Assembly (NCBI RefSeq): GCF_019603315.1
Contig: NZ_CP080649.1
Span: 2,552,176 to 2,616,175 of the forward strand
Length of the DNA: 64,000 nt
Direction of reading: 5' to 3'
From: Ruficoccus sp. ZRK36
Lineage (GTDB): Bacteria > Verrucomicrobiota > Verrucomicrobiia > Opitutales > Cerasicoccaceae
In this document: positions 16,876 through 51,217 of the stretch, in pieces
How the letters are laid out: each line of letters opens with the position of its first letter
Numbering within the stretch: position 1 is the first letter of the stretch
The notes under the pieces: generated by a model
What the model was told of the DNA's origin: nothing
Seen by the model: the letters and a program-made list of their open reading frames with translations, nothing else
Database searches by the model: none
Position numbers and translations under genes: made by a program

Positions 16876-17001
16876 CCGGGTTGCACTTTCGATGCTGCGC
16901 ATCGTGTCAGCGATCACGTGTCCAAGGCCAATGCCCCGTCGGGGCAGCGAACGCAGTGAGCGATGGGGCAGGGCCCCATCATTGCCAGCGGGTGCAACCC
17001 G
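16876..17001. repeat. hairpin-mosaic repeat with 10-bp terminal inverted repeats
   Basis: Ends pair as CGGGTTGCAC (16877-16886) with GTGCAACCCG (16992-17001). Inside are further perfect hairpins with 3-base loops: CGATGC-TGC-GCATCG, GCCCC-GTC-GGGGC and GATGGGGC-AGG-GCCCCATC. The block GCGAACGCAGTGAGCG recurs at about 18,909 and 22,065. It lies between convergently and co-oriented genes mutS and the CE2 esterase and contains no ORF. Related copies are at 18,796-18,970 and 22,057-22,280. Confidence 0.8.
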
Positions 17002-18284: not shown

Positions 18285-20240
18285 ATGCGCGTTTTTATCC
18301 CCTTGAAAAAGTTTATCCGCAAATTCGCCGACGAAGCCTTCCTGAAACGCTGGGCCTGGCTGCTGTTACTCGTCATCGCCGCACTGACCCTGACCGGGGG
18401 CACGGCCACCCTCCCGCTGATTGACCGCGACGAGCCACGCTTTGCCGAGGCTACGATCGAGATGATGCAGACCGACCAGTGGGTGATCCCGTATTTCAAC
18501 GGCGAGTACCGCTTCGACAAGCCGCCGCTGACCTACTGGTGGATGCGCGTCAACTACTGGATCTTCGGGACGACCGAGTTTGCCGCCCGTCTGCACTCCA
18601 TGCTCGCGGGCTACCTGTGCGCACTGGCGATCTTTGGCTTCGGGACGCGCCTCTATGATGCCCGCGCGGGGCTGCTGGCCGGGCTCGGCTGGCTGACCTG
18701 CTTGCAGGTCATGATCCACTCGCGCATGTCCGTCGCGGACATGCCCATGGTGCTCGCGGTTATCCTCGTCCAGTGGGCTGCCTGGGAACTTTTGATGAGG
18801 GGCTCCGCCCCTATGGAGCCAAAAGGCTCCTACCCCCGGAAGGTCACGGACATAGAGAAGAAAGAGGGGGCGACCCCGGATGCGAGCGAAAGCATCAAAG
18901 AGGGGGCAGCGAACGCAGTGAGCGATGGGGGAGCCGTCCCCCATCAATGCCAGCGAAGGCACTTCGCCGCCGGGTGGTTTTGGATGCTGTGGCTGGGGAT
19001 GGCGATGGGCTTTCTAGCCAAGGGGCCGATCGTGTTCTTTGTGCCACTGCTGGCCTGGCTGCTGTGGCGCTGGGTGTTCTGGCGTGGCCACAAACAAAAG
19101 TGGGGGCGCCTGCACTACGTGACCGGATCGCTGATTTTTCTCGTCGTCATCGGCCTGTGGGGGATTCCCGCGCTGATGGAGACGCATGGCCTGTTTTGGG
19201 ACAAGGGCATGGGCGAGCACGTCGTCGAGCGGGGCTTCAAATCCTTTAACGACCGCCTCACATTGCCTTTTTATTACCCGCTGACCGCCTTTATCAGCCT
19301 GATGCCGTGGGTGGCCTTTGCCTGGTGGGGCGTGGTCAAGGTCCGTCGTAACTGGGACGGACGGGCGGCCTACCTGCTGAGCTGGCTTGTCGCGCCCTTT
19401 ATCATCTTCACTTTTTATGCCACGCAGTTGCCGCACTACACGATGCCGGGCTTCGCGGCGTTTTTCCTGCTGCTCTTCAGCCCGGCGCAAAATGCCTTCA
19501 AGACCGGCCGTGGGGAGAAAATCTTCTACTGGTGCGTAAACGGTATCTGGCTGATCGTACTGGCAGCCATCGCCTACGTGCTGTTTTCCCAGAAATTTTT
19601 CGGCCCCGCTGCTCCGCTGCGGCTGGTGCTGGCAGGGGCAGCCGTCGTCTGGCTGGGTCTGCTGGGGATCGGTTTCAGCTTCCGCAAGCCCAGTATCGGA
19701 CAGATGGTCTTCGCGCTCTTCGCAATCTGGATTGGTACGCACGCCATGGCCATCGGGCTGCGGGCGGCGGCACCGGCACCGGGCTTGACTCAGGTCTTTG
19801 CCCAAGCCCCGGCGGACACCCAGTGGCGCGCCGTCATCTATCAGGAGCCGAGCCTCGTCTTTTATAGCGGGGAAAGTTATCTCAACGACAAGATCGTACC
19901 GGTAGATGACGATACGAAACCGCCTGCCGCCCTGAAACGCTGGAAAGAGTACGGCAGCGTTGACCAAATCCTGACCGAGGAGGCGTTCCGCGAAGAGGCC
20001 ATGCAGCCCACCGGGACGATCGGACTTGTCCGCGAATGGCGTCTGGAGGACTTTGCCAAGACCCTGATCGGGCAGCCATTGGTCGCCGGTAAGGACTACG
20101 AAGCCGACTGGGACAAGCTTGGGTTCGCTCCCGAGGATGCCCTCTATATGCGCGGGATCAACTTCGCGCGCATGTCCTGGATCGAGCTGATCATCCTGCG
20201 TCCGGAGGCTAAGGCAAGCACCTCTTCGGAGACGGAGTAA
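18285..20240 (+). CDS. ArnT-family membrane glycosyltransferase with an in-frame repeat insertion
   Basis: About 651 residues from the ATG at 18285; upstream starts at 18216 and 18246 are possible. A polytopic GT-C enzyme that transfers sugars from polyprenyl-phosphate carriers (ArnT/PMT family). LIDRDEPRFAEATIEMMQ near 44-61 is the classic first-loop motif with the catalytic Asp; YRFDKPPLTYWW follows. Multiple TM helices cover 20-500, then a soluble C-terminal domain. Residues about 171-228 are Gly/Ala/Ser/Pro-rich and charged, unlike the family, and are encoded by a hairpin-mosaic repeat (18,796-18,970). Without it the flanks join smoothly (QWAAWELL...WFWMLWLGMAMGFLAKGP). The acceptor is unknown; lipid A modification is one possibility. 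Confidence 0.88.
   Translation: MRVFIPLKKFIRKFADEAFLKRWAWLLLLVIAALTLTGGTATLPLIDRDEPRFAEATIEMMQTDQWVIPYFNGEYRFDKPPLTYWWMRVNYWIFGTTEFAARLHSMLAGYLCALAIFGFGTRLYDARAGLLAGLGWLTCLQVMIHSRMSVADMPMVLAVILVQWAAWELLMRGSAPMEPKGSYPRKVTDIEKKEGATPDASESIKEGAANAVSDGGAVPHQCQRRHFAAGWFWMLWLGMAMGFLAKGPIVFFVPLLAWLLWRWVFWRGHKQKWGRLHYVTGSLIFLVVIGLWGIPALMETHGLFWDKGMGEHVVERGFKSFNDRLTLPFYYPLTAFISLMPWVAFAWWGVVKVRRNWDGRAAYLLSWLVAPFIIFTFYATQLPHYTMPGFAAFFLLLFSPAQNAFKTGRGEKIFYWCVNGIWLIVLAAIAYVLFSQKFFGPAAPLRLVLAGAAVVWLGLLGIGFSFRKPSIGQMVFALFAIWIGTHAMAIGLRAAAPAPGLTQVFAQAPADTQWRAVIYQEPSLVFYSGESYLNDKIVPVDDDTKPPAALKRWKEYGSVDQILTEEAFREEAMQPTGTIGLVREWRLEDFAKTLIGQPLVAGKDYEADWDKLGFAPEDALYMRGINFARMSWIELIILRPEAKASTSSETE
18796..18970. repeat. 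hairpin-mosaic repeat inside a coding sequence
   Basis: Five perfect hairpins in about 175 bp: AGGGGC-TCC-GCCCCT (18798-18812), GGAGCC-AAAA-GGCTCC (18815-18830), GATGC...GCATC (18879-18896), ATGGGGGA-GCCG-TCCCCCAT (18925-18944) and GCGAAG-GCA-CTTCGC (18953-18967). It shares GCGAACGCAGTGAGCG and a downstream CATCAATGCCAGCG-type block with the copies at 16,876 and 22,057. No stop codon arises in the ArnT-type reading frame. Confidence 0.8.
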
Positions 20241-20312: not shown

Positions 20313-21011
20313 TTACGACTTCGTCTTGCGTGTCTTGCGGTAGGCTGCCCCGAAGACCACTCCGAAGGCTACACCCAGGCCGATACCGCCTACGATGTCG
20401 GCGGGGTGGTGACGGTTGAGCTGCATGCGTGACCATGAGATGCCACCGGCTACCGGGTAGGCGATCAGCCCCGCCGGTGGGCAGACAAAGGTGACCGCGG
20501 TCGCACTGGCAAAGGCCGTTGTCGTGTGCCCGGAGGGGAAGCTGTGGTACCCGTGCTTGAACTCCAGCAGGTACATGCCGTCGGGCACGTTTTCACTCGG
20601 GCGGGGGCGTCCGAAGGCCGGACGCAGGACGTTGACGGCGATGCCGCCCCACAGGGCCGCGAAGAAGACAACGAGCATGATGCGTTGCCAGCGTTTGCTT
20701 TTAAAGATGATCGCCAGCGGCAGGCCGATCACGAAGACGATGACGTTGATCTTGAAAAAATCGCCCCAGTAGCTGAGCGCGCGTGCCACCTTCTGGATGG
20801 GGGTAAAGGTCCACGGATCGGTCGTGGTAATGTACTCGGGCTGGCGGATGTCGCTCAGCCAGGCTTTGTCGTGGGGCAGGATCAGCGCGACTGCGCCCAG
20901 GGTGACAACGAGCCCGACCAGAAACCACGGCCAGCGGCGCTTGAAGGTGCGCCAGGCTCCGGTGTGAAGTTCACGCGTGAGCACCCACAGCTGTTTGAAA
21001 ATGGCTTTCAT
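20313..21011 (-). CDS. PAP2 superfamily membrane phosphatase
   Basis: 232 residues, five or six TM helices. The phosphatidic acid phosphatase type 2 signature is complete: RPAFGRPRP (130-138), PSGH (159-162) and SRMQLNRHHPAD (194-205), giving the catalytic His-Asp pair and phosphate-binding Arg. Likely substrates are lipid phosphates such as undecaprenyl pyrophosphate or phosphatidylglycerol phosphate; motifs do not decide. The ATG at 21011 overlaps the stop of the CPBP gene (ATGA), so the two are probably one operon. Confidence 0.9.
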   Translation of the reverse strand: MKAIFKQLWVLTRELHTGAWRTFKRRWPWFLVGLVVTLGAVALILPHDKAWLSDIRQPEYITTTDPWTFTPIQKVARALSYWGDFFKINVIVFVIGLPLAIIFKSKRWQRIMLVVFFAALWGGIAVNVLRPAFGRPRPSENVPDGMYLLEFKHGYHSFPSGHTTTAFASATAVTFVCPPAGLIAYPVAGGISWSRMQLNRHHPADIVGGIGLGVAFGVVFGAAYRKTRKTKS

Positions 21012-21979
21012 GATTCAGGGAGAGAGGATTTACGGGGGGCAAGTATCGCCCATGCACACAGCGCGGCCAGCGGCAGCAGGGGCAGCAGCCCGTCGAGCAT
21101 GGTCTGTGAGCCCCACAGCCACTTGGCTTCCCCGACGGGAATCTCGATGAACTTCGTGTACACGGCCCGGAAGCAGACCCATCCCGCGTGGACGCCGACG
21201 CAGGGCCACAGCGTCCCGCTGCGCAGAAACAGCAGGTTCAGAAAGGCTCCGGCTGCGAAGAGGTTGGCGAACTTCCACCAGTCCGGCTCCAGAATAAACC
21301 CGACAGCGACCTGCCAGCAGACCTCGAAGCCGCTCCACCAGTGCACGCCCTGACCCTCCGGCCAGGAGACATGCTTGAAGTGGACGTAGGCGAAAAACAG
21401 CGCCGCCAGCGCAACGGCAGGGCCGGGCCGCAGGGCAGTATAAAAGAGCCGGAAAATCAACCCGCGAAAGAGCATCTCCTCCAGCAGGGCGACGACCAGT
21501 CCCGCCACCAGCCCGAGGGCGAGCTTCTCCAGCAGATAGCCGGTGCTAAACTGGTCGCTGACGCGAGCACCGACCACGGCCCACTGCACGAGGGCGACCG
21601 CACCGAGCATCAGCATGCCAGCCAGCCACCACGTGGCCAGCGGCAGCAGCCCCCGCTTTGGCTCGGTGTAGCCCAGCCGCCGAAAAGAAAACAGACCCGT
21701 CCACCGAAACAGCCACGGCAGCAGCAGCACGACGGGCAGCCAGCGTACGCGGTCAAAGTACCGCGGGAAATCCTCCGGAGCCATCCGGGAGGAGAGCCAT
21801 CCGGGGATAGTGTCGGGAGAGGAGGTCGCCCAGGCCTTGACCGCAAAGTAGATCAGCGGGCTCACCACAGCGGCAAAGACCATCGCCCCGAAAAAGATCA
21901 GGGCCAGCGCCGCCACGCCTTTCCAACTGGTGCGGTCTTCGCTCAGGCCGAAGAGGATGAAGGGGCGTTCGCGTTGCAT
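21008..21979 (-). CDS. CPBP-family intramembrane metalloprotease
   Basis: 323 residues from the ATG at 21979 (MQRERPFILFGLSEDRTSWKG). A longer reading frame to 22090 is open, but its extra N-terminus (SCRSLRSLPL...) is the translation of the hairpin repeat and is rejected. About eight TM helices. The CPBP (Abi/Rce1) signature is present: EEMLFRG at about 165-171 with the catalytic glutamates, then FAYVHFKH with the metal-binding His near 200. Such proteases process membrane or prenylated proteins; the substrate is unknown. Coupled to the PAP2 gene by a 4-bp overlap. Confidence 0.88.
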   Translation of the reverse strand: MQRERPFILFGLSEDRTSWKGVAALALIFFGAMVFAAVVSPLIYFAVKAWATSSPDTIPGWLSSRMAPEDFPRYFDRVRWLPVVLLLPWLFRWTGLFSFRRLGYTEPKRGLLPLATWWLAGMLMLGAVALVQWAVVGARVSDQFSTGYLLEKLALGLVAGLVVALLEEMLFRGLIFRLFYTALRPGPAVALAALFFAYVHFKHVSWPEGQGVHWWSGFEVCWQVAVGFILEPDWWKFANLFAAGAFLNLLFLRSGTLWPCVGVHAGWVCFRAVYTKFIEIPVGEAKWLWGSQTMLDGLLPLLPLAALCAWAILAPRKSSLPES

Positions 21980-22337
21980 GTCGGTCGTTAGGGGGCGCTT
22001 ACGGTGAAAGCGATCATGCTGCCGTTTCACCCGGCGAGTGCAAGGACTGAAAATATAAAGGGGCAGCGAACGCAGTGAGCGGCAGGACATGGTCCTGCGC
22101 CTGTGGTGCTCCGCACCACCGATGCCGCCGCCAACGCGGCGGCATGGGCAACGGCGTTTGACGCCAACTCAAACGAACTCTGTTCGCCGCACATAGGCTG
22201 ACGGCGAACTCTGTAGGCAAATTGGAATTGACTGCGAGCGATGGGGCAGAGCCCCATCAATGCCAACGGGGCGCAACCCGTGGTCACGCACCTGATTGAC
22301 ATCCTGCGTTTGCACAACTATTGTCGGCTTTCCACAC
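21980..22337. other. intergenic region between divergent CPBP and hydrolase genes
   Basis: 358 bp with no gene, largely filled by the hairpin-mosaic repeat at 22,057-22,280. Short ORFs crossing it are translations of the repeat. It must also carry promoters for both divergent genes, probably at its two edges. Confidence 0.6.
22057..22280. repeat. largest hairpin-mosaic repeat copy
   Basis: A chain of perfect hairpins, mostly with 3-base loops: GCAGGAC-ATG-GTCCTGC (22082-22098), GTGGTGC-TCC-GCACCAC (22103-22119), ATGCCGCCGC with GCGGCGGCAT (22122-22145), GGCGT-TTG-ACGCC (22153-22165), CGAAC-TCT-GTTCG (22174-22186) and ATGGGGC-AGA-GCCCCAT (22241-22257). It begins with GCAGCGAACGCAGTGAGCG (about 22,064) and ends GCGCAACCCG, like the copy at 16,876. 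Confidence 0.8.
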
Positions 22338-43670: not shown

Positions 43671-43701
43671 AAAAATGGTGGTGGGAACTGGATTCGAACC
43701 A
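43671..43701. repeat. attL, left copy of the 31-bp direct repeat
   Basis: Identical to 51047-51077. It starts AAAAATGGTGGTGGGAACTG and ends GATTCGAACCA, which is the complement of the T-arm/acceptor end of tRNA-Tyr with encoded CCA. It is a truncated tRNA fragment; the D-arm and anticodon parts are absent here. Confidence 0.93.
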
Positions 43702-44033
43702 TGTCGCATAACTCCGCAACCCATTGCGGCGTAGATGGTAGCGAGTCCGAAGGGGACGAGGACACTCCCGTATGCACTCCCGAGGCTCTGGACGCGGGCG
43801 AATTCTTCGCTGAACTGGCAGAGGTTTTAGAGGCGTGGGGCGAGCTTCCCGCGCACATCCGGCAGTCAATACTGGCGTTGGTCAAGGTTGGCCGCTCCGA
43901 GGGCGAGCCGCCCCGCGCTGAGCAAGAAAGCGCGCCCAAAGGCTCGCTTGCGACTGCGCGGAAAGAGGCGGCGGGACTGGCTCTAGGCCCAGCCAAGAAG
44001 CGTAACCGGTCAACCGGAGAGGGCGCACGATGA
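43701..44033 (+). CDS. small element-encoded protein ahead of Rep, unknown function
   Basis: 110 residues. The start ATG uses the last base of attL. It is acidic and Ser-rich at first (SESEGDEDTPVCTPE), then a helical segment AGEFFAELAEVLEAWGELPAHIRQSILALVKVGR, then a basic tail. The helical block resembles C-terminal tails I associate with integrases of related bacteria. In the excised circle the integrase frame would read straight into this ORF (see findings), so it may really be the C-terminal part of the integrase in the circular state. Its stop overlaps the rep ATG (ATGA), supporting translation. Confidence 0.55.
   Translation: MSHNSATHCGVDGSESEGDEDTPVCTPEALDAGEFFAELAEVLEAWGELPAHIRQSILALVKVGRSEGEPPRAEQESAPKGSLATARKEAAGLALGPAKKRNRSTGEGAR
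43760..43784 (+). promoter_or_regulatory. 25-bp repeat near attL, candidate integrase arm-type site
   Basis: Contains the tandem CACTCCCG-TATG-CACTCCCG. An identical 25-bp copy in the same orientation lies at 50893-50917 near attR. Both are inside the element, 58 and 129 bp from the cores, as expected for the two arms of an attP site bound by the N-terminal domain of a lambda-type integrase. Both copies are also coding (DTPVCTPE in the same phase). Confidence 0.5.
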
Positions 44034-44977
44034 GCGAGCTTGAAAACTTCTACGGGGTGCAGGTGCGCGGCTATCACGGTCCCAACTGGATCACGGAGCG
44101 CGGAGTTTACCTCAAGCGCAAGGAAATCGAGCGTAAGGGGCTTCCTGTGCTCAAGCGGTGCAAGTTCCTCACGCTGACCACGGACGGACACGGCCTTATG
44201 CCTCCGCAGGAGGTTTACGAGCTGGGGAGCGCACGCATGCGGCGTTTCTTGGCCAAGGTCCGCAAGGTGATTGGGAAATTTGGCTGGGCGTGGAAACTCG
44301 AGTTTCACGAAGACGGGTATCCGCATTGGCATCTCATAATCGATTACCGCAAGAAGATACCGCCCGACTTTCTGGACATGTTCACGAAGTGGTGGGGCCT
44401 CGGTCGGGTCAACGTCCAAGGTATCCGGGAAAAGCGTTTCCGCTATCTGTTTAAGTACGTCTCGAAGATGGCGAGCGGCGACTGTGACGAGGAAACCGGC
44501 CTCGATCTGCCGGGCTGGGTGCTTGACTACCGCAAGCGGCGCAAGGATGGGCGACTAACGGCGGGCATTCGTTTCTGGCAGACCGGCGGCGGCTTTTACA
44601 CCAAGCCCGCTAAGGCCGACGACGAAGAGGGCGACGAGCCCAAAGGGAAGAAGCCGCAACAGACTTCCCGCGTGCCGTATACGCTGCGCCAACGCTGGGG
44701 CATGTGGATGCGCAAGGGCACGGTCTACGTCAAAGGGTGGGGCGGTAAGTACCTCCGTTCCCAACAGGTTTACTTTCAGCGGCCTTATCACGAGGTCGCG
44801 CAAACAGTCATCAACGCATTTGTGGGCGGCAAGGCTGCACCTGTCTCAAATGCTCTTGGATTCATGTGCGGCCTAGAACTCATCAATAAGGAAATACAAC
44901 TATGGAAACGAAAACAAATCAACCGACTGGCAACCTACTATTCAAGGACGGGGACGGTCTTTTTCTCCGTGGATTAG
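44030..44977 (+). CDS. HUH-superfamily replication initiation protein
   Basis: 315 residues. Rolling-circle initiator that nicks one DNA strand. The HUH metal motif is PHWHLIIDY (His99, His101), preceded by the conserved CKFLTLTTD block (44-52, motif I). The catalytic motif is Y139-x3-Y143-x2-K146 in RYLFKYVSK; two Tyr four apart recall the phiX174 gpA/microvirus type rather than single-Tyr plasmid Reps. The C-terminal half (KAD-DEEGDEPKGKK linker, then a Trp-rich segment) is unassigned. Coupled to the preceding ORF by ATGA; the following small gene overlaps its end by 76 bp. Confidence 0.85.
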   Translation: MSELENFYGVQVRGYHGPNWITERGVYLKRKEIERKGLPVLKRCKFLTLTTDGHGLMPPQEVYELGSARMRRFLAKVRKVIGKFGWAWKLEFHEDGYPHWHLIIDYRKKIPPDFLDMFTKWWGLGRVNVQGIREKRFRYLFKYVSKMASGDCDEETGLDLPGWVLDYRKRRKDGRLTAGIRFWQTGGGFYTKPAKADDEEGDEPKGKKPQQTSRVPYTLRQRWGMWMRKGTVYVKGWGGKYLRSQQVYFQRPYHEVAQTVINAFVGGKAAPVSNALGFMCGLELINKEIQLWKRKQINRLATYYSRTGTVFFSVD

Positions 44978-45201
44978 TGGTTAGCGTCGATGTGGCGGAA
45001 AAGACCTGGGAGGGCCTGAGCTATAAGCAGGTCAAAGCGGCCATCAGCAGCGGGAAGCAGTCGTATTACTTCCTCGCCTCCGATAAAAAGGAGCCGCTAC
45101 CGGAAGTGCAGATCGGGCGGCGTGCCTGTATCGAGGCCGAGCGTGTCCATCAGGAAAAGGGGATCACGACCGTTTACGGCAAGTTTGGGTATGAAAACTA
45201 G
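44902..45201 (+). CDS. small protein after Rep, possible ssDNA-binding protein
   Basis: 99 residues, soluble, predicted mostly beta (GLFLRGLVVSVDVAEKTWEG, YYFLASDKKEPLPEVQIG, TTVYGKFGYEN). I do not recognise the family. The position directly after an HUH Rep, the size (about 100 aa) and beta-rich character are like gene V-type ssDNA-binding proteins of filamentous phages and their plasmids. That role is an inference only. It overlaps the rep 3' end in another frame. About 110 bp of non-coding sequence follows, with a GC-rich stretch at 45,203-45,236. Confidence 0.65.
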   Translation: METKTNQPTGNLLFKDGDGLFLRGLVVSVDVAEKTWEGLSYKQVKAAISSGKQSYYFLASDKKEPLPEVQIGRRACIEAERVHQEKGITTVYGKFGYEN

Positions 45202-45311
45202 CCGCAGGGCCGGGGTAGTGCAGTGCTGCCCCGGCTTTTTGTCTATGTTTCACAGAAGAATATGTTCGCTTGACAAATATATCCAAAAAGCTAACCTAAA
45301 ACCATCGAAAC

Positions 45312-45593
45312 ATGATAAAGTCATTCGCCTGTAAGCACACCGAAGCGCTCTTCGGCAACCAGCGCCATCGGAGGCTTCCCGCGAACTTGCAGGCATCCGC
45401 TCTGCGCAAGCTGCGCCTCATCGACGCGGCTGACTGCGTGGAAGACTTGCAACTGCCGCCCGGCAACCGCCTCGAAAAACTCAGCGGCGACCGCAGCGGG
45501 CAACATTCGATCCGTATCAACCAGCAATACCGCATCTGTTTCCGCTTCGAGGGCCAGCACGCCCACGCGGTCGAGATTGTGGACTACCATTGA
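45312..45593 (+). CDS. higB: HigB-type toxin (RelE/HigB superfamily)
   Basis: 93 residues, ribosome-dependent mRNA interferase family. It shows the standard blocks MIKSFACKHTEALF, LQASALRKLRLIDAADCVEDLQLPPGNRLEKLSGD and HSIRINQQYRICFRF, ending VEIVDYH with the conserved C-terminal His. Toxin gene first, antitoxin second, which is the HigBA order. It probably stabilises the element in the host. ATG at 45312. Confidence 0.93.
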   Translation: MIKSFACKHTEALFGNQRHRRLPANLQASALRKLRLIDAADCVEDLQLPPGNRLEKLSGDRSGQHSIRINQQYRICFRFEGQHAHAVEIVDYH

Positions 45594-45603
45594 GGAAACA
45601 ACC

Positions 45604-45918
45604 ATGAGCAAGCATCCGAAAATGATTCCCGAGCCACACCCCGGTGAAATCCTGCTGGAAGAGTTTATCAAGCCCGCAGGCATCACCCCGTACCGTGTCG
45701 CCAAGGACTCCGGTATCTCGCAGTCAACCATGACGCAGATCGTCAACGGCAAGCGCGGTATCTCCATCGAAACCGCCCTGCGCCTCGCGACGTACTTCAA
45801 GACCACCCCGGCCCTCTGGCTCAATCTGCAACGCAACTACGAACTCCGCATGGCCGAACAGGAAATCCTGCCCGCAATCCGTAAGCAGGTAAAGCCGCTG
45901 GAACTGGCCAGCGCATAA
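45604..45918 (+). CDS. higA: HigA-type antitoxin, HTH_XRE family
   Basis: 104 residues from the ATG at 45604 (MSKHPKMIPEPHPGEILLEEF); an ORF extension to 45577 would overlap higB. The XRE/HigA helix-turn-helix YRVAKDSGISQSTMTQIVNGKRGIS is followed by the VapI-like ETALRLATYFKTTPALWLNLQRNYELR block. It neutralises HigB and should repress the higBA promoter. 10 bp after higB. Confidence 0.94.
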   Translation: MSKHPKMIPEPHPGEILLEEFIKPAGITPYRVAKDSGISQSTMTQIVNGKRGISIETALRLATYFKTTPALWLNLQRNYELRMAEQEILPAIRKQVKPLELASA

Positions 45919-46003
45919 AAACCGCTCTCCTGTGAATTAACGATGCAGACTTCATGTCATACTGGTCGGCTTAAGTGATGTGTAAAATATAAATGATTGT
46001 ACC

Positions 46004-46993
46004 ATGGGATCTTATCATAACACCGCAATTGTACTGGGTAATCTCAAAGAGGCGTTACTATATTATGACTTCGTTATCCCAATGAATTTCGCAGGCCAGT
46101 TTATGGGCCTAAGGGCAAATAGTAGTAGTAATGGTGTGGAGATTGAGAAGTTTAAAGAAATAAGCGAGAATAGCATTCACGAATTAGATGAGGCTTTTGG
46201 AGGAGGAGATGGTGTCGTTGATTTGTATCCACCGCATCTGAGAACACGTCCTGGGTTTCGTCAGCTTATACAGTTTTTTGATAATCTCTTGTTTTTGTAC
46301 ATGGTGAAGCAGGGGCATGGTGACGAGATGTTTAAAGCGTTTATTGTAAAACTATCGGAAATGAAGGGGGGAGGAACAAATGAGGCTGGACGCTTCCCAT
46401 GTCCATCTTTGCGTGACGTAACGGATCTTTTTGACATTATCGTCGAAGATTTTGAGTTGGCCGATATGGTTGTTGACTGCTCTGGATTTTCGCATGCCGC
46501 ATTAAATGATGATGACGTCACAAACTGCATCTCAATCCCGGGTGTTGCTTTCATTGATACTGAAAAGCTTACAATACCTGAAATTATGGAATTTCGGAGG
46601 GATAAAGCTGTTATGGATAAAATGAGAAGTTTTCGACTTTTTGCCTATGAGCAGTACGGTGGAAAAGAAAGGGCATTTATTGAAGATGATATTCAGAGAA
46701 GATTAGATGAATATCGAGAATGCGTTAAGTCGCTTGGGTTTGAAACAACAATCAAAACTCTTACATTCCTTTGTGATTCAAAAATTTTGGCTGGGGCATT
46801 GGTTACGTCGGCTGTGTCCATGCTCATGGGGAATAGTCAGCTCGCGATCGAAGCATTTAGTGCAGGAGCTGTTTTAGAGTTGGGGAAACTTACTTTGGAG
46901 TACTCTAGACAAAAGAATTCGCTGGCTAGGCTCACTAGGCGAAATCCCATTTCATACATTGATGATGTATTTAATTTACATGAGAAGCCGTAA
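46004..46993 (+). CDS. AT-rich cargo protein of unknown function
   Basis: 329 residues; no family I can name with confidence. It begins TAIVLGNLKEALLYYDFVIPMNF. A middle segment is rich in acidic residues, and a helical stretch follows: FRRDKAVMDKMRSFRLFAYEQY then IEDDIQRRLDEYRECVKSLGFE. Near 265-285 a hydrophobic stretch (ILAGALVTSAVSMLMG) could be a membrane helix or buried core. The composition differs sharply from the host chromosome. It stands alone, with an 85-bp leader and a large hairpin over its stop codon. Location next to a toxin-antitoxin pair and nuclease-like genes suggests defence or stabilisation cargo, unproven. Confidence 0.75.
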   Translation: MGSYHNTAIVLGNLKEALLYYDFVIPMNFAGQFMGLRANSSSNGVEIEKFKEISENSIHELDEAFGGGDGVVDLYPPHLRTRPGFRQLIQFFDNLLFLYMVKQGHGDEMFKAFIVKLSEMKGGGTNEAGRFPCPSLRDVTDLFDIIVEDFELADMVVDCSGFSHAALNDDDVTNCISIPGVAFIDTEKLTIPEIMEFRRDKAVMDKMRSFRLFAYEQYGGKERAFIEDDIQRRLDEYRECVKSLGFETTIKTLTFLCDSKILAGALVTSAVSMLMGNSQLAIEAFSAGAVLELGKLTLEYSRQKNSLARLTRRNPISYIDDVFNLHEKP

Positions 46994-47040
46994 ATGGGCT
47001 GGATGCAGCCGCTTTGCGGGTGCGCCAGCCCGTTTACGGC
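46987..47040. repeat. 54-bp near-perfect hairpin, candidate replication or termination structure
   Basis: Outer stem of 16 bp (46987-47002 with 47025-47040, one G-T pair; GCCGTAAATGGGCTGG), then an inner stem GCAGCCGC/GCGGGTGC with one mismatch and a TTT loop. It is GC-rich in an AT-rich setting and includes the stop codon of the preceding gene. No T-run follows on either strand. It could be a single-strand or double-strand origin for the HUH Rep, or a transcription terminator. Confidence 0.6.
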
Positions 47041-47272
47041 TCTTTCCTTGTCAAAGATCAGTATAAGTGACAGGGGAGGCTTTCTGGAATACACTGGCGG
47101 CCGGTTGAACTTATCTTCCTGAGGTATTTGCTCGCCATTATGTTTGTTTTGTCATTATTTATTACAATGAGACTGCGCTTAGCTTGAAGTGAGATTGTTA
47201 TAGATCTATGCGACAGCGAACGTCTAACTCATGTGTTTCGAAAACTACTATCCAACCTTAAATTATTTAATA

Positions 47273-47917
47273 ATGGGAAAAGCAAAACCAGTCGAACTGC
47301 CTAGCAAAACTTTTTCGACGACAGGCGAAGCTACTCAATTTTTCAAAGATATGCTTGGCCGGTATTCTAATAAACACAGAGACAGAATAAACGAAAAGGA
47401 CAGTGTATTGCTTTATGAGCTTCTCCTTAGGCACCCAGAGCAGGAACAGAAGATTGGGGCCGGTGTGGACTATTTCTATAAGGATAAAAATGAAGATTAT
47501 CCTACTCGTGGTTTTCATCTCCATCGAGTTGATGGTAGTTCGACTGATTTTTCATATCCTACGTGCATCAAGGGAGAGAAACCTTCTGTTGGGGAATATT
47601 TCTACCGTGCTTGTCGTGGTGCTGTTTCTGACTACCTGACGAGAGAGAAAAATGCACTGCTTGATGACGGAATGGGGATTTGCCCAGAGACTGGTGAGTT
47701 GCTTACTAAAGATAACTCTGAATATCGTCATACAAGCCCGACGTTTCACGAATTATTGGATTCATTCAAGAATAACGAAAATTTAGAACTGAGTTATGCG
47801 ATGTTTGTGGATGATGCAGATATGCAGTACGGTGTTAAATTTTTGGATAGTAGTATTCGTGGTCGATTTATTAATTATCATAGGGAAAATGCAAATATGG
47901 AATTGTTCAAAAAATAG
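47273..47917 (+). CDS. DUF3223 protein with HNH-like C-terminus
   Basis: 214 residues from the ATG at 47273 (MGKAKPVELPSKTF); the frame is open to 47231. Residues about 12-100 match DUF3223: FSTTGEATQFFKDML, LLRHPEQEQKIGAGVDYF and FHLHRVDGSSTDFSY. The C-terminal part (about 135-210) has the outline of an HNH-type nuclease: CPETGELL (Cys137), H153 in YRHTSPTFHELLDSF, and YHRENANMELF (His203). The usual Asp before the first His is Arg here, so catalysis is uncertain. Three bases separate its stop from the DUF3644 gene; the pair is surely co-transcribed. AT-rich. Family assignment good, function unknown. Confidence 0.75.
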   Translation: MGKAKPVELPSKTFSTTGEATQFFKDMLGRYSNKHRDRINEKDSVLLYELLLRHPEQEQKIGAGVDYFYKDKNEDYPTRGFHLHRVDGSSTDFSYPTCIKGEKPSVGEYFYRACRGAVSDYLTREKNALLDDGMGICPETGELLTKDNSEYRHTSPTFHELLDSFKNNENLELSYAMFVDDADMQYGVKFLDSSIRGRFINYHRENANMELFKK

Positions 47918-47920
47918 AAA

Positions 47921-48928
47921 ATGAATCCATACGGCTCATATCGCGCACTCTTGGGGAACTCAGTGAGTGCTATGCTCGCGGCAATCGAGATTTACAATAA
48001 GCCTCAGTTTTCGTACCGATCTGAGTGCTTTGTAATATTATTGTTAAACTCATGGGAATTGGCCTTTAAGGCCATTCTTTCAAAAAATAAAATTCGTATA
48101 TTTAAGCCCAAAGAAAGAGACCGGCCTTACATGACGCTAGGCTTATTGGAAAGCGTCGATGAGGCAAAGAGACATTTTCCTTCAGGAATTGAATTTAAAC
48201 CAGTCTCTGAGAATATTGGCAGGTTGGTTGACTACAGGAATAACGCAGTTCACTTCTACAATGAAGCAGGGTTTGAGGCACTTATATACGGATTGGCTCA
48301 AACATCTATAGTTAATTATCGTGATGTCATTTCTGCTTGTTTTGGTCGGGATATTGCAAGTGAAGTAAACATCAGTCTTCTTCCATTAAGCTTTGGAGCA
48401 ACACCGGACCCAATACAGTTTCTTGGTTCTACCGATAATAACAACCAAAAGCCAGCGGTATCAGAATTCTTGAAAATAATATCCGACACGACTGCTGAAT
48501 TGGAAAAGGGTGGATTCGATACCGGTCGATTTCTTACAGTCTTCCAGGTTAATTTACAATCTACAAAAAAGGTTCAGTCGGCGGATATCGTTGCTGGCAT
48601 TAAGGGGGATTCTTCGAATGGAGTCCTTTTGGTTTCGAAAAAAATCGACCCGAATAAAAGCCACCCACTCAATCGAAAAAAGGTATTGGATAAAATTGAT
48701 AAGGATCACAGGGGGGCAATATTTAATGAGCGAACATTTGATGCGCTTGTTTGGAAGCACAAGCTGAAAGACAAAGGAAACCTCTGTTGGAAAAATGAGA
48801 GTATTGGAACATACCAATACTCGCCAGAAATAGTCTCCGTGCTTAAAGCGTATACGAAGGAGCAGATAAATAATGCGAGGTTAGAATACAGCGATCACCA
48901 ACGGTTGAAGCGGTATGGCCCCGTTTAA
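47921..48928 (+). CDS. DUF3644 protein with HEPN-like RNase motif
   Basis: 335 residues. The N-terminal domain (about 10-150) looks like DUF3644: ECFVILLLNSWELAFKAIL, then DYRNNAVHFY. The last gives Arg106-x4-His111, the R-x4-6-H signature of HEPN ribonucleases found in many toxin and abortive-infection proteins. The C-terminal half (about 170-335) is Lys-rich and unassigned; it ends with WKHKLKDKGNLCWKNESIGTYQYSPE, which could be a DNA- or RNA-binding module. Tight two-gene unit with the DUF3223/HNH-like gene. A defence or toxin role is inferred from the HEPN-like motif and mobile context. Confidence 0.75.
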   Translation: MNPYGSYRALLGNSVSAMLAAIEIYNKPQFSYRSECFVILLLNSWELAFKAILSKNKIRIFKPKERDRPYMTLGLLESVDEAKRHFPSGIEFKPVSENIGRLVDYRNNAVHFYNEAGFEALIYGLAQTSIVNYRDVISACFGRDIASEVNISLLPLSFGATPDPIQFLGSTDNNNQKPAVSEFLKIISDTTAELEKGGFDTGRFLTVFQVNLQSTKKVQSADIVAGIKGDSSNGVLLVSKKIDPNKSHPLNRKKVLDKIDKDHRGAIFNERTFDALVWKHKLKDKGNLCWKNESIGTYQYSPEIVSVLKAYTKEQINNARLEYSDHQRLKRYGPV

Positions 48929-49045
48929 TCTCTCTGGATTACTTTTTGCTGATTATGTTTCATTGGGGGCCGGGCCACACCGCCTAAATGAAAATATTTT
49001 CAAAAATATGTTTACAAAAAACGCAAACAATGAGAGTATGCGTTT

Positions 49046-49570
49046 ATGGATAACAAAAATAAGTCATCTCGAACTGCTGACATTTCCGAATTTACGGCAG
49101 ACAACCTAGAAAAAGCGGGTGTGAAGCTTTCACGCGACAGACTCGAATCAATCGAAGCTAGTGTGAGGCGTGAGGCAGAAATTGAGGAGGCCGTGGGCTA
49201 CGAGCGTAGGCTTTTGTCTACTTGCTACGATCAGGCGTACAGTGTTGGCGGCACGATTCGGTCGCTTTTGCGGGCACAGGAGGAAGAGGAGCAGCAAAAA
49301 CAGGAAATGGAGCAGCAGACTGTTACGGTCAGCGTTCGCATCGATAAGGATATTGTTTTCCGCATCGAGGAATACGCAAAGCTGCTCAACGTCAGTAAGT
49401 CATTCCTTCTCCGCTCCTATATTGAGGCCGGCTCTTTTGAGACGTGCGTGCACCTGGCTAAAAAGGGGTATTTTGAGGAGGCAATTGGAAAACTGTTGGC
49501 TGCTGATCAAGCACATGGTCTGCGACCGCTTGCCGAGGCCCTTCGTGAGGATATGCAAGGCGATGAGTAG
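49046..49570 (+). CDS. ribbon-helix-helix DNA-binding protein
   Basis: 174 residues. The N-terminal part (1-85) is charged and helical, with a Gln/Glu-rich coiled-coil-like stretch (EEEEQQKQEMEQQ). A CopG/Arc-type RHH motif follows at about 92-135 (TVTVSVRIDKDIVFRIEEYAKLLNVSKSFLLRSYIEAG). A helical C-terminus completes it. It is followed closely by alpA and int, so it may control excision/integration or copy number. Exact role not known. Confidence 0.75.
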   Translation: MDNKNKSSRTADISEFTADNLEKAGVKLSRDRLESIEASVRREAEIEEAVGYERRLLSTCYDQAYSVGGTIRSLLRAQEEEEQQKQEMEQQTVTVSVRIDKDIVFRIEEYAKLLNVSKSFLLRSYIEAGSFETCVHLAKKGYFEEAIGKLLAADQAHGLRPLAEALREDMQGDE

Positions 49571-49598
49571 GAAAACCATAACGATGAAGGAGGCCGCT

Positions 49599-49777
49599 AT
49601 GAGTGAAGACACGATCAGGATTCAAGAGGCGGCTAAGCGAATTGGGATGTCAAAGCGTAGTCTTTACCGTTTGATCGCTGACGGAAAGTTTCCGAGGCCC
49701 TTGAAGGAACATGGTCGGGCTCGTTACCTTGAAGCTGAAATCGAAGCTTATCTTGAGCGTACCAGAAAGGTGCGGGC

Positions 49778-49781
<4 letters not shown>
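49599..49781 (+). CDS. AlpA-family excisionase/regulator
   Basis: 60 residues, MerR-like winged helix of the AlpA/Xis type: IRIQEAAKRIGMSKRSLYRLIADGKFPRPLKEHGRARYLEAEIEAYLE. The ATG at 49599 is chosen because a perfect AAGGAGG lies 5 bp upstream (49586-49592); an ATG at 49563 in the same frame, overlapping the RHH gene stop, is the alternative. Such proteins bend DNA at att sites to favour excision, or activate int. Its stop overlaps the integrase ATG (ATGA). Confidence 0.88.

Positions 49782-51217
<1,436 letters not shown>

Follow-up and report, generated by a model that had tools for sequence, protein, structure and literature searches.

A 175-nt segment (18796-18970) of the window, the 64,000-nt stretch of DNA analysed here (positions 2552176-2616175 in the 3.76 Mb genome of Ruficoccus sp. 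ZRK36), is very probably a stack of REP-like extragenic palindromes (Table 1). They would have entered one loop of an ArnT-type membrane glycosyltransferase stepwise, each time in frame. The initial annotation had proposed that a mobile or expanding repeat invaded the gene at a tolerated loop. This proposal is supported by the identity of the repeats, by the layers seen among orthologues and by an orthologue that carries no repeat. The invasion of a tolerated loop stands, and it comprised at least two events, probably three.

Table 1. Coordinates in the window of the host gene, the segment and the related repeats
Feature	Position	Strand	Remarks
ArnT/PMT_2-type membrane glycosyltransferase gene	18285..20240	+	651 aa, ATG at 18285
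Segment	18796-18970		residues 171-229; example peptide EGAANAVSDGGAVPHQCQR
Module A	18798..18836	-	GTAG-tagged double hairpin; encodes RGSAPMEPKGSYP
Perfect hairpin	18798-18812		stem at least 6 bp
Perfect hairpin	18815-18830		stem at least 6 bp
Probable ancestral-loop remnant (RKVTDIEKKEG)	18837..18871	+	resembles the G007/G008 loop
11-nt direct repeat, left copy (AAAGAGGGGGC)	18861..18871	+
36-nt (12-codon) stretch	18872..18907	+	absent from the three other orthologues; ends in the right copy of the 11-nt repeat
Hairpin GATGC-GAGCGAAA-GCATC	18879-18896		5-bp stem, 8-nt loop; direct reading
Module B	18900..18967	+	GGGGCAG-[GCGA AC GCA GT GAGC]-GATGGGGGA...TCCCCCATC-AATGCCA-[GCGAAG GCA CTTCGC]; encodes EGAANAVSDGGAVPHQCQRRHFA
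GCGAACGCAGTGAGC	18909-18923		pairing includes a tandem G.A mismatch; read directly
Perfect hairpin	18924-18945		stem 9 bp
Perfect hairpin	18953-18967		stem at least 6 bp
Intergenic core copy of module B	16943..16966	+	downstream of the stop of a - strand GDSL esterase-type gene
Partial core copy	22062..22085	+	3 mismatches; just upstream of a - strand gene called 21008-22030

The host gene and the segment

The product of the host gene matches the PMT_2 domain (PF13231, Pfam, E 3e-11). When a profile of four orthologues was compared with the PDB, ArnT (4-amino-4-deoxy-L-arabinose transferase; 5ezm/5f15) was the sole match at E <= 0.001. The alignment with ArnT (5ezm) is significant over the first helices (E 5.3e-11 across profile positions 21-153), whereas from profile position 217 on it is not significant alone (i-Evalue 160), and after the loop about 24 residues of ArnT stand opposite about 75 here. 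Orthologues were found in all three other genomes of the genus (G007, G008 and G009), with amino-acid identities outside the segment of 84.6%, 70.9% and 84.8%, respectively, and the gene is also present in the record of Verrucomicrobiota bacterium JB024 (contig JAUTCS010000042.1). There is no internal stop, and the identity of 84.6-84.8% to two relatives is kept even though only 63% of the codons at unchanged residues are identical. Judged by these features of its sequence, we conclude that the gene is intact and is not a pseudogene.

Hydrophobicity and the alignment of the relatives place the segment between two membrane helices. ArnT has its N terminus inside and its catalytic loop outside. 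Counting from ArnT, the segment falls in the loop that joins helices 4 and 5, probably on the cytoplasmic side, an assignment drawn from homology and GT-C topology. Structure prediction from two sequences gave a pLDDT of 36. The same enzyme has a second length-variable stretch (19872-19940, about residues 530-552), which is present here and, with another sequence, in G009, and is missing in G007 and G008.

As first described, the segment lies in frame inside the ArnT-type gene, and sequence and translation agree on its place; the translated residues are 171-229. The description of five perfect hairpins proved slightly generous, since four have stems of at least 6 bp and the fifth stem is just 5 bp. 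The block shared with two intergenic repeats, reported as 16 bp, is in fact longer: a 24-nt core (GGCAGCGAACGCAGTGAGCGATGG) recurs exactly at 16943-16966 and with 3/24 mismatches at 22062, and it had no match in 100 shuffles. RNA folding of the 175 nt gave z = -3.5, with 1 of 200 shuffles equally stable.

Stems of at least 6 bp cover 68/175 nt of the segment, the top value, though a tied one, among 350 genes called in 464 kb; these calls, which also supply the intergenic or in-gene status of every copy below, come from a small codon-usage script and not from a published gene finder. An RpoD-like gene (L075) likewise reaches 68/175 nt from ordinary coding sequence, and therefore membership of a repeat family, not hairpin density, distinguishes the segment. 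Chance hairpins in a GC-rich gene were ruled out by repeat identity and not by hairpin density. The maximum for the ArnT-type gene itself is 70, for a placement taking in two hairpins upstream of the segment. Six other hairpin-rich coding stretches (RpoD-like, BioA-like and others, named by eye) encode ordinary-looking proteins. Two more perfect hairpins, at 18694-18711 and 18724-18744 (7 and 9 bp), lie in conserved coding sequence and by eye bear no resemblance to the family.

Rfam gave no match at E up to 1 in 18600-19100 and, at gathering scores, only two tRNAs in the window; a distant blastn search of PLSDB found no plasmid relatives of the segment. Elsewhere, the window holds a probable integrative element (43671-51137). 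A - strand tRNA gene (51055-51137) shares its 3' end with a 31-nt repeat (43671-43701 and 51047-51077), and a phage-type integrase (PF00589) is encoded at 49862-51217.

Modules A and B and their genomic copies

Read on the - strand, module A is GGGGTA-GGAGCC TTTT GGCTCC-ATAG-GGGC GGA GCCCCT, which follows the scheme GGGGTA-stem1-ATAGGGGC-GGA-GCCCCT. The pattern GGGGTA N11-22 GTAGGGGC, which misses the ArnT copy itself, was found 24 times here, 19 times in G007, 21 times in G008 and 31 times in G009, and the reversed-pattern controls gave 1, 1, 3 and 2 matches in the same genomes. Among 62 genomes of the order, the pattern is abundant only in the three genus members sampled; six other sampled genomes have 1-2 matches each, close to what the reversed control gives. 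Of the 95 family copies, 84 have a paired stem 1, which means 5 bp or more or, in a G.A sub-type, pairing of the inner 2 bp, and the stem sequence varies (GGAGCC, GCCGCC, GCGGCC, GGCAC, GGCGC). The G.A sub-type reads GCGA-NN-loop-NN-GAGC, with CT/AG, CC/GG or AT/AT inside. Context was obtained for 70/95 copies, 69 of which are intergenic, and an opposite-strand gene comes next in 50/69. One intergenic copy in G009 (L171) matches module A, in reverse, across its first hairpin and the two tags (27 nt, one base different), and the sequence that comes next there is unlike module A. Inside the ArnT-type gene, the tag of module A is GTAG here and GTGG in G007 and G009. A 175-aa ORF in G007 (L135:1281-1808) also carries a GTAG element in frame (SPYGTSCLPQ); because the ORF has no Pfam match, it is only a possible second intragenic case.

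Module B is a GCAG-tagged double hairpin with a third hairpin and is related to module A. Counted genome-wide, as the initial annotation had suggested, its core is present at 44 places, 22 of them exact, with no match for the reversed-pattern control. By the codon-usage gene calls, 43 places are intergenic and one, in the ArnT-type gene, is within a gene. An opposite-strand gene comes next after 35/43 intergenic copies at a median distance of 43 nt (29/35 within 100 nt), and therefore the element normally sits shortly behind a stop codon. The tags over the 44 copies are GCAG in 37, GTAG in 2 and other sequences in 5; at L055, one of the two GTAG copies, both tags have an intermediate form. Most copies of module B lack the GTAG tag by which the GTAG-REP superfamily is recognised, and we file module B as a relative of A and not as a GTAG-REP. 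Its GCGA-AC-GCA-GT-GAGC stem is the same sub-type as the G.A members of the A family, and in our reading A and B are variants of a single double-hairpin family.

Small hairpin words surround the copies. GATGCGAAGCATC occurs 12 times in 464 kb, intergenic and near copies (e.g. L001-L030, L043-L056), and TGCGCAGCATCGAAAGTG nine times in the same intergenic mosaics; neither was found inside called genes of the 464 kb. Some small hairpin words around copies have GNA-type triloops. In a small G007 sample, long hairpins were not enriched between genes (0.30 compared with 0.29 per kb, from only 3 hairpins).

Amplification was counted with a 25-nt core form, allowing up to 3 mismatches, in 273 genomes of the order. 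This genome gave 37 matches and G007 none; G008 had a single intergenic match, G163 a weak one, and G009 one, which lies inside its ArnT-type gene. With 37 core matches here against one each in G008 and G009, we conclude that module B multiplied in the lineage leading to the present genome. As far as the 25-nt pattern reaches, module B is known in G009 only as coding sequence.

A search for Y1 transposases (PF01797, E <= 0.001) found none in this genome, G007 or G008. In G009 there are four PF01797 matches (L094-L097), three of them over the cut-off, and their loci contain no double-hairpin pattern. An associated RAYT (Y1) gene, a usual feature of the GTAG-REP superfamily, was thus not found for the module A family; in the account of Di Nocera et al. 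(PMC3733652), RAYTs are missing in some GTAG-REP species. The family may have lost its mover or may spread by another route. Mobility could be due to a REP transposase (RAYT) that has been lost or is external, or to hairpin-templated strand switching.

Layers of the loop across orthologues

The loop of G008 contains no repeat. In G007 the loop holds module A alone and then ends like that of G008 (KFSKWF), in G009 it holds A and B, and in this genome it holds A, a probable remnant of the ancestral loop, the 36-nt extra stretch and B. All loop versions in the four orthologues keep the frame. Loop length differs in every species of the genus compared, and the distant orthologues G001, G005 and G006 (24-33% identity in matched stretches) have a loop of a few residues. 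The initial annotation had reasoned that the same segment, conserved as protein sequence in distant orthologues, would speak against an insertion, and these three orthologues are without it. It had also suggested looking for strains without the segment; the congener G008 has none of it, and presence or absence and stepwise growth are visible among the orthologues of the genus. The clean edges that it anticipated were not seen, because part of the ancestral loop has been lost or rewritten.

Insertion would have been tolerated at this place because the loop, whose length already varied, joins two membrane helices and probably lies on the cytoplasmic side, remote from the catalytic loop. Selection would have removed insertions that were out of frame or brought in stops.

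A six-gene quartet tree hardly resolves this genome, G007 and G009 (246, 227 and 162 supporting sites), and therefore module B may have arrived a single time, in an ancestor shared with G009, or twice, or it may have been lost in G007. Loss in G007 is also part of an explanation that we consider unlikely, in which a single tail-to-tail REP dimer brought in both modules. With A reversed and B forward, their tags point inward like those of published TT dimers (PMC3733652), and the predicted fold pairs their inner ends (CCCCC/GGGGG); however, at the place of B, G007 has an ancestral-looking loop end, RPRKFSKWF (RGKFSKWF in G008), which fits G007 never having had B. We prefer the entry of REP-like elements in separate steps.

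Pairing kept inside the coding sequence

Module A differs at 3/39 positions among three orthologues, all of them unpaired (P 0.05 if random). Codons of unchanged residues in module A are identical in 11/11, 10/11 and 12/13 cases, and the corresponding fractions outside it are 0.63, 0.63 and 0.71. By resampling, P is 0.005, 0.055 and 0.050 (the three comparisons overlap and are not independent), a modest signal of conserved third positions.

For hairpin 3 we compared 14/17 sequences, chosen by eye for this type and leaving out three identical and other-type copies. In these 14 sequences, which include both in-gene copies, 100% of cells are paired with G-U allowed, compared with 40-45% in slid controls, and 6/6 pairs have changed on both sides; one of five measures of covariation, that of further pair types, was not above shuffles (196/500). 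Between this genome and G009, a CGA/CGG arginine codon and a TTC/TCC (F/S) codon differ together, and pairing is kept. The covariation of hairpin 3 and the location of the module A changes in unpaired sites point to a hairpin maintained as nucleic acid, whether selection or some form of copying is responsible, although with few sites this is suggestive only. The pairing of in-gene stems would then reflect upkeep or correction of the element as a hairpin of nucleic acid, and not any importance of its peptide.

It is improbable, in our judgement, that the translated stems stay hairpins because mutations are copied to the other arm, by hairpin-templated correction or an equivalent, with pairing driving amino-acid changes and the coding copy serving as a refuge. 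The basis for a refuge is that the pattern used finds module B in G009 only within the ArnT-type gene and in G008 at just one intergenic place. If this were true, a family that has grown to about 44 copies in the present genome may have survived in relatives as translated sequence.

Also improbable is a selected protein function of the segment peptide, for example as a partner-binding loop, with the hairpins as by-products. Such a function would suit the module A peptide RGSAP(M/T)EPKGS(Y/H)P, which hardly varies among three species in a loop that otherwise aligns poorly, but it is at odds with module A codons that tend to exceed the gene-average conservation, with the unpaired position of 3/3 module A changes, with the pairing kept through the F/S and CGA/CGG changes of hairpin 3, and with the absence of the segment from G008 and the distant orthologues.

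We give almost no credence to growth of the loop from GC-rich low-complexity sequence that slipped or was duplicated locally, with the intergenic likeness as convergence: the 11-nt direct repeat and 36-nt period that resemble local duplication, the different loop length in every species and the like hairpin density reached by chance in one other gene would agree with it, but for A and B it is already contradicted by the 24-nt exact intergenic match (0/100 shuffles), by the core at 44 genomic places and by a tag-stem-tag-stem order that is the same as in the intergenic family. Local duplication may account for the 36-nt extra stretch.

Known repeat systems and meaning

The reading of the segment as stacked REP-like palindromes invites comparison with the GTAG-tagged REPs described by Di Nocera et al. 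2013 (PMC3733652), in which HT/TT dimers and a location at gene 3' ends are reported. As in the GTAG-REP superfamily, the tags of module A (GGGGTAG and GTAGGGGC) are unpaired beside a short stem-loop, and its family is high in copy number, mostly intergenic and near gene 3' ends. The present repeats differ in having two hairpins in a fixed head-to-tail order with these two tags, in having one sub-type with a tandem G.A mismatch, in the mostly GCAG tags of module B, in that a Y1 transposase was not detected in this genome, and in the stacking of two elements in one loop with layers visible across four species.

Protein-coding palindromes had been called rare outside Rickettsia. They are not confined to that genus, since they are also reported in O. 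terrae (Verrucomicrobia) and several other bacteria (PMC3733652); among the in-frame intragenic REPs described there, the most numerous are those of O. terrae (GTAG) and R. conorii (CGTC). Small bacterial repeats are described from both intergenic and intragenic regions (PMC2229807). In a search of the full-text literature on Verrucomicrobia palindromic repeats or intragenic GTAG REP elements, PMC3733652 was the sole match, and its main text does not contain glycosyl-, mannosyl- or membrane as words.

Rickettsia palindromic elements (RPE) lie in frame within ORFs likely to encode functional proteins (as cited in PMC3733652). Like RPE, the repeat described here is palindromic and lies in frame within what is, by its sequence, a likely functional protein gene. 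Unlike RPE, it belongs to a different phylum, its likeness to them rests on the mode of insertion and not on RPE sequence, and the intragenic place is rare, with 1/44 B copies and 1/70 A copies with context in a called ORF.

REP repeats inside genes are already known, and what is new here is a well-resolved layered case, not a new type of system. Four congeneric orthologues give the order of arrival, whereas intragenic REPs are otherwise catalogued genome by genome. Because the order of arrival is visible, doubts about a misannotated ORF or an old protein sequence are much reduced. Changes at paired stems within the translated segment offer a place to ask whether selection or a copying mechanism keeps the hairpins, because the reading frame serves as an independent clock. 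The segment would also represent a route by which REP-type repeats add charged loops to membrane enzymes.
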